DNA from: Bacteroidota bacterium
Lineage (GTDB): Bacteria > Bacteroidota > Bacteroidia > AKYH767-A > OLB10
NCBI GenBank assembly: GCA_947447155.1
Contig: CANFIN010000005.1
Coordinates: 1-59,511 of the forward strand
DNA: 59,511 bases
Reading direction: 5' to 3'
Position 1 is the stretch's first letter. Every line of letters starts with the position of its first letter. Made by a program: the position numbers and the translations under genes. A model generated the notes under the pieces. It had not been told where the DNA came from. It did not search any database and saw only the letters and a list, made by a program, of their open reading frames with translations. Positions 1,949 through 3,392 of this stretch are shown one piece after another.

Positions 1949-2055
1949 GGATTTTTCAGAACCCATTTTTCATAATTTTTATTTTTCAATTTTAATTTTA
2001 TCTCGTAAAATAAAATTAGACTGGAAAAATTCGGAATCGAATTCCGAATTTTTCC
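1949..2055 (+). repeat. Flanking repeat, copy A, ending in a perfect 15-bp hairpin
   Basis: This AT-rich stretch matches 3241-3348 in the same orientation at roughly 80% by eye. It ends in a perfect hairpin: GGAAAAATTCGGAAT (2023-2037), loop CGA, ATTCCGAATTTTTCC (2041-2055). The two copies bracket the AAA ATPase gene. In this copy the hairpin fills the position where a -33 promoter element would sit. Confidence 0.8.
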
Positions 2056-2056
2056 A

Positions 2057-2064
2057 TATATTTG
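2057..2064 (+). promoter_or_regulatory. -7 promoter element of the DUF4143 ATPase gene
   Basis: TATATTTG lies only 4 bases before the ATG at 2069, so the transcript would be leaderless or nearly so. The upstream region is the hairpin of repeat copy A, and no -33 TTTG is seen. Confidence 0.5.
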
Positions 2065-2068
2065 CGGC

Positions 2069-3229
2069 ATGGTACAAAGGATAGCAAAAAAGAAATTAAT
2101 TGATCTTGCCTCCAAGTTTAAGGCGGTTGCTGTTATTGGAGCGCGTCAGTCGGGGAAGACCACACTCATCAAACAGGTATTTAAAAATAAGCCTTATGTT
2201 TCGATGGAGAATCCTGATACGCGACATTTTGCGATTGAAGATCCGCGAGGATTTTTATCGTCGTTTCCGAAAGGAGCCATCCTTGATGAGGTGCAACGTG
2301 TGCCACAACTATTTTCATACTTACAAGAGATTCTCGATGACCAACGAGCAAAAGGATTGTTTATCCTTTCCGGTTCAAACAATTTTTTACTTCAACAAAA
2401 TATCTCGCAAACATTGGCTGGCCGTGTAGGATACTTGCAGCTACTCCCATTTTCTATTAGTGAGTTAAGTAAGAGTAAACTATTAGCAGCAAGCGATGAT
2501 GCCTTAATGCTGAAAGGGTTTTATCCGCCTGTATATGATCAGAAAATTCCTTTTGGTGATTGGTGTCCTAATTATATCAGCACCTATATTGAAAGAGATG
2601 TGCGCCAAATAAAAAACATAACCGACCTTATTGTATTTGGAAGGTTTATGAAACTACTCGCAGGTAGAAACGGACAAGAATTGAACTATAGTTCACTATC
2701 GATAGAAACGGGTGTAGATATGAAAACGATACAATCGTGGGTGGGAGTATTAGAAAGCAGCTTTATCATTTACCTATTAAAGCCACACCATAATAACTTC
2801 AATAAAACGATTGTAAAACGTCCTAAGCTGTATTTCTACGACACATCGATTGTTTGTTCCTTGCTAGGAATTCGAAATGTAGCGCAGATAAAAAACCATC
2901 CACTACGCGGAGCCATCTTCGAAGGAATGGTGATTACAGAGTTGTTAAAGAACAGAACCAATGCAGGCAAGCCTGTTAATTTATCGTTTTGGCGAGATAA
3001 AACAGGAAGAGAGATTGATGTTATTGTTGACAATGGCAACACTCAGTTTCCAATTGAGATAAAATCAGGTAAAACAATTCATGATGAGTTTTTGAAGAAT
3101 ATCGAATATTGGAAATCAATGAGTGGGTTCAAAAAAGGACTTGTATTATATGCAGGAAAAGAAAATCAGAAGAGAAGCAAAGGAACCGATATTTTAAACT
3201 GGAGAGCACTTTCAGAATTAGATTTGTGA
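2069..3229 (+). CDS. AAA-family ATPase with DUF4143 / PD-(D/E)XK-like C-terminus
   Basis: This 386-aa protein belongs to the AAA ATPase plus DUF4143 family, which is abundant and often present in many copies in Bacteroidota. The Walker A motif GARQSGKT lies near residue 25, Walker B ILDEVQ near 72, and a sensor-like LSGSNNFLL near 97. The C-terminal part has EID followed about 15 residues later by EIKSG, the layout of a PD-(D/E)XK nuclease-like core. The start at 2069 is required because Walker A begins about 25 residues in and no other upstream Met exists. Cellular role is unknown for the family. The gene sits between two direct repeats, which suggests mobility or recombination. No toxin, antitoxin or restriction partner is visible nearby. 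Confidence 0.85.
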   Translation: MVQRIAKKKLIDLASKFKAVAVIGARQSGKTTLIKQVFKNKPYVSMENPDTRHFAIEDPRGFLSSFPKGAILDEVQRVPQLFSYLQEILDDQRAKGLFILSGSNNFLLQQNISQTLAGRVGYLQLLPFSISELSKSKLLAASDDALMLKGFYPPVYDQKIPFGDWCPNYISTYIERDVRQIKNITDLIVFGRFMKLLAGRNGQELNYSSLSIETGVDMKTIQSWVGVLESSFIIYLLKPHHNNFNKTIVKRPKLYFYDTSIVCSLLGIRNVAQIKNHPLRGAIFEGMVITELLKNRTNAGKPVNLSFWRDKTGREIDVIVDNGNTQFPIEIKSGKTIHDEFLKNIEYWKSMSGFKKGLVLYAGKENQKRSKGTDILNWRALSELDL

Positions 3230-3240
3230 TGATAAAAAAG

Positions 3241-3348
3241 GCTATTTTTTGGAAGCCATTTTTCGTAATTTTAAATTTTCGATTTTCATTTCACCTCGTA
3301 AAAATAAAATTGATCGGAAAAATTCGGAATCGGATTCCGAATTTTTCC
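3241..3348 (+). repeat. Flanking repeat, copy B, ending in a perfect 16-bp hairpin
   Basis: This is the second copy of the repeat at 1949-2055, in the same orientation, starting 12 bases after the ATPase stop codon. It ends in CGGAAAAATTCGGAAT (3315-3330), loop CGG, ATTCCGAATTTTTCCG (3334-3349). Unlike copy A, it has no TAnnTTTG box after the hairpin. The hairpin might also stop transcription, although the T-run lies inside the stem. Confidence 0.8.
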
Positions 3349-3392
3349 GATGTTATTAAACAAACAGAATTATGTTTGCCTGCAATGTATGT

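Follow-up and report, generated by a model that had tools for sequence, protein, structure and literature searches.

One ATPase gene in the 59,511-nt stretch of Bacteroidota DNA analysed here (the whole stretch is called the window) lies between two similar repeats, and each repeat ends in a palindrome. What is the palindrome to the gene? A sequence-only reading of the window had seen in the repeats the possible limits of a mobile cassette, or of a unit that could be lost or amplified by recombination between them.

The gene, its product and the flanking repeats

The gene (2069–3229, + strand) encodes a 386-aa protein that scores over the curated Pfam cut-offs for both AAA_14 (99.8 bits, cut-off 27) and DUF4143 (161.7 bits, cut-off 28.1), and that matches the PADLOC PDC-S01 models over residues 2–382 (324 bits, E = 3e-97). 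With both domains and this score it belongs to the PDC-S01 or AAA_14-DUF4143 candidate phage-defence ATPases, a family that we take to be COG1373. A solved homologue was sought by sequence and none was found at E up to 1, while an NCBIfam search gave weak partial matches and nothing more. The structure model of the protein has a mean pLDDT of 93.2. The best fold matches of residues 1–267 are the archaeal ATPases 2qen (PABY2304; Z 15.7, rmsd 3.1, 244 aligned) and 2fna (SSO1545; Z 15.0, rmsd 3.2, 243 aligned), and this alignment stops short of the nuclease domain of the model. Residues 187–240 (2627–2788, + strand) form a helix-turn-helix region predicted from the secondary structure of the model, which we read as a putative winged helix. 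A separate model of the C-terminal 130 residues (pLDDT 91.3) resembles PD-(D/E)XK nucleases: the best rows are Can2 (Z 10.2, rmsd 4.4, 128 aligned) and McrC (Z 8.9, rmsd 3.4, 125 aligned), a Holliday junction resolvase scores Z 6.0 (rmsd 3.8, 92 aligned), and nearly all of the top fold rows, with Z up to 10.2, have what is presumably the PD-(D/E)XK fold. The D...(D/E)xK motif is found here as E315-x-D317 ... E330-x-K332 (3011–3064, + strand), with E315, D317 and K332 invariant and E330 kept in at least 90% of 44 sequences. We predict from these models an AAA ATPase with a winged helix and a PD-(D/E)XK nuclease domain, a PDC-S01 defence candidate. A homologue was also present in 359 plasmid and 6 phage records. 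For one gene with AAA_14 and DUF4143, TT_P0211 of Thermus thermophilus, a 6.6-fold rise with plasmid and Argonaute present is reported (PMC4406477); such a rise would fit an inducible gene.

The two repeat copies, A (1941–2055) and B (3234–3348), are both on the + strand with a spacing of 1293, and are identical at 94 of 115 positions without gaps. The bracket of similar, same-orientation repeats around the gene is confirmed, and begins about 8 nt earlier than the sequence-only reading had placed it. The perfect hairpins of 15–16 bp that it described are indeed perfect at both sites. Palindrome A (2022–2056), the one aligned with 41 relatives below, has 16-bp arms and a 3-nt loop; palindrome B (3313–3351) turned out to be longer, with 19-bp arms around a 1-nt centre. 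Palindrome A stands just upstream of a TATATTTG box (2057–2064, + strand, 12 nt before the ATG), presumably the Bacteroidota -7-like box, and this promoter-like box follows copy A only, as had been noted. With up to two mismatches, the 15-nt arm occurs four times in the window, as both arms of both copies; shuffles gave a mean of 0.39, and none of 100 reached four. Between the two copies the palindrome is better preserved than the remainder of the repeat, with 32/33 identical positions against 65/83 (Fisher p = 0.013).

With up to three mismatches, the hairpin matches its own genome (172 contigs, 84.5% complete) at the two window sites alone; a random genome-wide scatter beside unrelated genes, the outcome that would have told against the earlier reading, is not what is found. 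The 128-nt repeat region gave no further long match in seven genomes of the genus, except at the same site in the sister genome G004. We rejected a dispersed repeat of the REP or MITE type, as neither the palindrome nor the repeat region occurs away from the gene, be it in the own genome or in the genus genomes. Three CAGGGTNGGG motifs with palindromes (e.g. 1838–1865) lie at 1817–1911 beside the LamG gene, the reverse motif occurs near positions 4 and 95, and similar motifs stand at the same site in G004 and in the sister species G003. They form a small family of palindromic repeats belonging to the genus, distinct from the repeats around the gene.

Palindromes at the starts of family genes

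An inverted repeat scoring at least 12 between -100 and +15 was found in 76 of 139 family genes and at 2 of 155 neighbouring gene starts (Fisher p = 8e-29), counts that are not independent, since the sequences are related, and in which the near clade is over-represented (52/139). The survey covered 139 of 143 genes; L080, L085, L005 and L135 were dropped for a short upstream region or a low score. The same score was reached by 0.14% of shuffles and by 6 of 135 downstream regions of the family genes themselves. When each gene was compared with 20 shuffles of its own, 106/139 beat all of them and 33/139 did not, on a score that understates imperfect palindromes because bulges are disallowed. A palindrome over the promoter or start is thus far commoner in this gene family than in neighbouring genes.

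In nearly every near relative the palindrome lies about 15–60 nt before the ATG. More distant relatives have other palindromes, often extending to the ATG, and the arms reach up to 30 bp (L061). A TA(2-3)TTTG box, which we take to be the promoter of a leaderless gene, is found 11–13 nt before the ATG in 35/52 near relatives; its position puts the palindrome upstream of any transcript to be expected there. The palindrome probably occupies the -33 to -7 region of a leaderless gene. As for an operator, a dyad over the own promoter is found in the family. Eight plasmid genes, picked from the best homologue matches, had palindrome scores of 12 (Ciceribacter), 10 (Wolbachia), 9 (Allochromatium), 8 (Aliarcobacter), 5 (Bosea) and 5 (Ruminococcus) in other phyla, and of 6 (Runella) and 7 (Emticicia) in Bacteroidota. 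Five of 20 viral contigs score at least 10, three of these being identical. On three contigs from a viral collection (L292–L294) the gene has an identical 45-nt palindrome that runs into the ATG.

The letters of the palindrome differ between clades and the symmetry is retained. Within the near clade, the inner core GGAATNNNATTCC is present in 42/52 relatives, and these 42 genes were aligned; the other ten are without the exact core, L054, L065 and L071 differing from it at a single letter. Requiring the exact core makes the five inner pairs symmetric by construction and hence uninformative; the outer 14 are informative. In 13 of the 19 pairs both sides have changed; two-sided cells number 132, compared with 46 after shuffling, and 92.5% of cells pair versus 74.4% shuffled. 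G-U states make up 6 of 798 cells. The near absence of G-U pairs indicates a symmetry of DNA and not an RNA stem, and an RNA element was also rejected on Rfam matches that are sub-threshold only (best E 0.005, far below gathering). Covarying arms of this kind fit selection on DNA symmetry. Among 12 Dyadobacter genes whose helix-turn-helix regions are 89–100% identical, outer arm pairs still change symmetrically: positions 17, 18 and 19 from the centre show paired changes and no asymmetric case.

Second copies, solitary palindromes and the history of the site

Among the 135 genes for which 100 nt or more of downstream sequence was available, about 10 repeat their own palindrome, nearly unchanged, in the 400 nt after the stop codon (the window gene, L121, L123, L100, L083, L035, L050, L033, L049 and L008); L121 and L123 come from near-identical genomes, which leaves nearer 9 independent cases. 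The window gene is therefore a less common form of the family, with a second palindrome downstream of the stop codon. The sequence-only reading had proposed looking for the same repeat beside other DUF4143 genes; the arrangement does recur, with other letters and in these few of the 135 genes. At eight of these loci the homology stops at the 3' edge of the palindrome or a few nt from it, and this end precedes the promoter-like box or the start; L033 differs and L008 was left out. The repeat of L121 and L123 is 159 nt long and 97–98% identical, so it has the look of a local duplication of recent date; the window repeats may be an older stage of the same process. The downstream palindrome may be a second binding site in the window, and its conserved arms suggest that it is under constraint too. 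A linker of about 260 nt separates the stop codon of L121 from its downstream repeat, and the opposite strand of this linker resembles, by eye, the C-terminal end of another DUF4143-type gene. A 162-nt stretch from the genus of G118, probably in the Prevotella group, was found in 3/65 genomes: two of them have it at two places, which flank the gene, and the third has a single weak match.

Palindromes beside a DNA-acting gene are familiar from REP elements with RAYT genes and from integron cassettes, and the window unit has their hairpin-gene-hairpin look. Unlike them, it carries no transposase or integrase gene. Its sole gene is the AAA_14-DUF4143 gene, with no Y1 (HUH) transposase as in REP-RAYT systems, and the palindrome is undispersed: it occupies two places in its own genome, and a covariance model of the near-clade palindrome, run over 47 genomes with both strands counted, matched 1–8 times per genome in 45 of them. 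Seventeen further matches of the model comprise seven at the 5' end of another DUF4143 gene, two behind one and eight without a family gene within 2 kb. L217 is a palindrome behind a distant family gene (78 bits), L219, L223 and L225 look like chance, and L212, L214 and L218 are solitary palindromes that have no family gene within 2 kb. The solitary palindrome L214 is closely like the promoter palindrome of gene L069 in the same genome.

Two of the eight gene-less matches fall at the Dyadobacter argB locus, where the ATPase gene adjoins argB in other species, and we surveyed this locus in 48 genomes of the genus. All 15 arm pairs are symmetric in 4/4 intact genes, against 14, 14, 10, 9, 7 and 7 of 15 in six gene-less remnants (Mann-Whitney p = 0.005). 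These six were accepted among 15 gene-less argB loci with gene X beside argB; L238 also has p = 0.005 but lies in a different place and was not counted, L260, where X was not seen, has a remnant by score, and no remnant was recognised in the remaining eight loci that lack the gene but have X. Judging from these arms, the palindrome tends to degrade after gene loss, and two gene-less ones are still nearly perfect (14/15 in L239/L210). At one further argB locus, L258, the ATPase gene is cut to a C-terminal fragment (residues 309–385) beside an intact palindrome (15/15), which is a step of gene loss. From their sequences, the solo argB palindromes look like scars of gene loss from a unit with one palindrome. 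Pop-out by recombination between two palindromes was rejected: solos exist at argB, but the filled relatives that were read carry the upstream copy alone. No example was seen of the proposed loss or amplification between repeats, neither a pop-out nor a multiplied unit.

The history of the window site can be followed in two sister genomes. G004 has a 96% identical orthologue behind the same LamG gene, with the same palindrome arms and a different loop; its contig stops 230 nt past the stop codon, where 57 nt align with the beginning of a second repeat copy, and the contig with DUF255 begins just past the expected end of that copy. G003 has LamG and DUF255 with a small ORF alone between them, and so provides the empty site that had been called for, though one with neither the gene nor a single repeat copy; its flanks have diverged, and no base-exact junction was seen there. 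DUF255 of G003 is 74% identical, yet the AAA_14-DUF4143 gene is missing. Conversely, the window protein is 72–74% identical to proteins from genomes of other families and orders whose DUF255 is 46–47% identical or, for two records, finds no match at the cut-off. The gene is present patchily, in 27/61 relatives, and these comparisons point to horizontal gain or very patchy retention. The mobile-cassette reading is supported in part, by the horizontal signal and the empty site; neither a transposase nor a definable target duplication was found, and units of the repeat were neither dispersed nor multiplied in the own genome (84.5% complete) and the genus genomes. Near-identical DUF4143 copies within a genome, also part of the sequence-only reading, found no support here, other matches in the same genomes being mostly 24–50% identical to the query protein.

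An operator, a DNA structure or the end of a unit

We lean towards the palindrome being a dedicated cis-acting DNA site of the AAA_14-DUF4143 family that the protein uses for autoregulation. The protein would bind the palindrome as a symmetric complex, with contact through the predicted winged helix and possibly the nuclease domain as well, and the bound protein would repress its own promoter until called on. Among restriction-modification controllers and toxin-antitoxin systems are genes that regulate themselves through a dyad operator lying over their promoter. The family resembles them in that the palindrome overlaps the promoter or start, the DNA site is symmetric and the product has a predicted DNA-binding domain; it differs in its long outer arms, which change freely and stay symmetric, in the nuclease domain within the same protein and in the occasional second copy behind the gene. 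The literature searched, which covered few subscription journals and was accessible in part, gave no description of a palindrome at AAA_14-DUF4143 or PDC-S01 genes, and the passages that mention PDC-S01 name none. We infer binding, autoregulation, contact by the winged helix and a role in defence; the evidence itself ties a symmetric DNA site to the gene family, placed where an operator would sit, and self-binding with autorepression is the simplest account of it and, in our judgement, slightly the better bet than its negation.

A plain sequence-specific operator is harder to square with outer arm letters that vary while the helix-turn-helix region hardly does. The 33/139 genes that fail to beat all their own shuffles, the nearly perfect gene-less palindrome of L239/L210 and the solitary palindromes also count against our account. 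Since the outer arms drift freely under a near-constant helix-turn-helix sequence, there is room for recognition of structure by the nuclease domain, and the palindrome could be recognised or processed as a cruciform or hairpin, as target or sensor, with regulation secondary. Symmetry that outlasts the letters without G-U pairs, arms of up to 30 bp and the PD-(D/E)XK likeness of the C-terminal model all speak for this; we hold it to be unlikely, as the core GGAATNNNATTCC in 42/52 near relatives exceeds what structure alone needs and a protein dimer could yield similar symmetry. A tentative and rather doubtful proposal joins the two ideas, making PDC-S01, which is among the most common of the candidate defence families, a two-part system of an ATPase-nuclease and its own cis palindrome, which stays symmetric while its letters drift, is read as DNA structure and serves as operator and as reference or trigger site. 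Loss of self-binding, e.g. by titration onto hairpin-forming invading DNA, would then switch the gene on, and palindrome pairs around a gene, as in the window, would be the bracketed form of the same design.

We consider it distinctly improbable that the palindromes delimit a unit able to move, or to be deleted through recombination between the two palindromes. Patchy presence, the horizontal signal, the empty site in G003, the downstream copies of own palindromes and homology that ends at or near the palindrome's 3' edge in the window and seven other loci are all what a cassette would leave; against it, most genes have no downstream copy, same-place genes in related Dyadobacter species among them, the repeats are found beside the gene only, neither a transposase nor an exact junction was found, the 159-nt repeats of L121 and L123 resemble local duplication, and the upstream palindrome belongs to the promoter or start of the family generally. 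Less probable still is a terminator or insulator role of the palindrome, for a gene that frequently settles at new sites: terminator-like pattern matches do occur at both palindromes (7 between 1800 and 3700, 1.3 expected), but copy B has none on the + strand, the gene's own direction, the stems are AT-rich with almost no G-U pairs, and the palindrome usually precedes the gene, just ahead of the promoter-like box. It would be most surprising if the arms had been equalised by a mutational process alone and the element had no function. Template switching is reported to homogenise the arms of inverted repeats (PMC8604942), and leaves unexplained why the palindrome sits over the promoter, why it goes with one gene family and why symmetry is lost once the gene has disappeared.

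For the family, a palindrome tied to the gene means a concrete DNA ligand and a sequence handle on the regulation and specificity of these candidate defence ATPases. It also means a DNA element that keeps its symmetry although its letters change.
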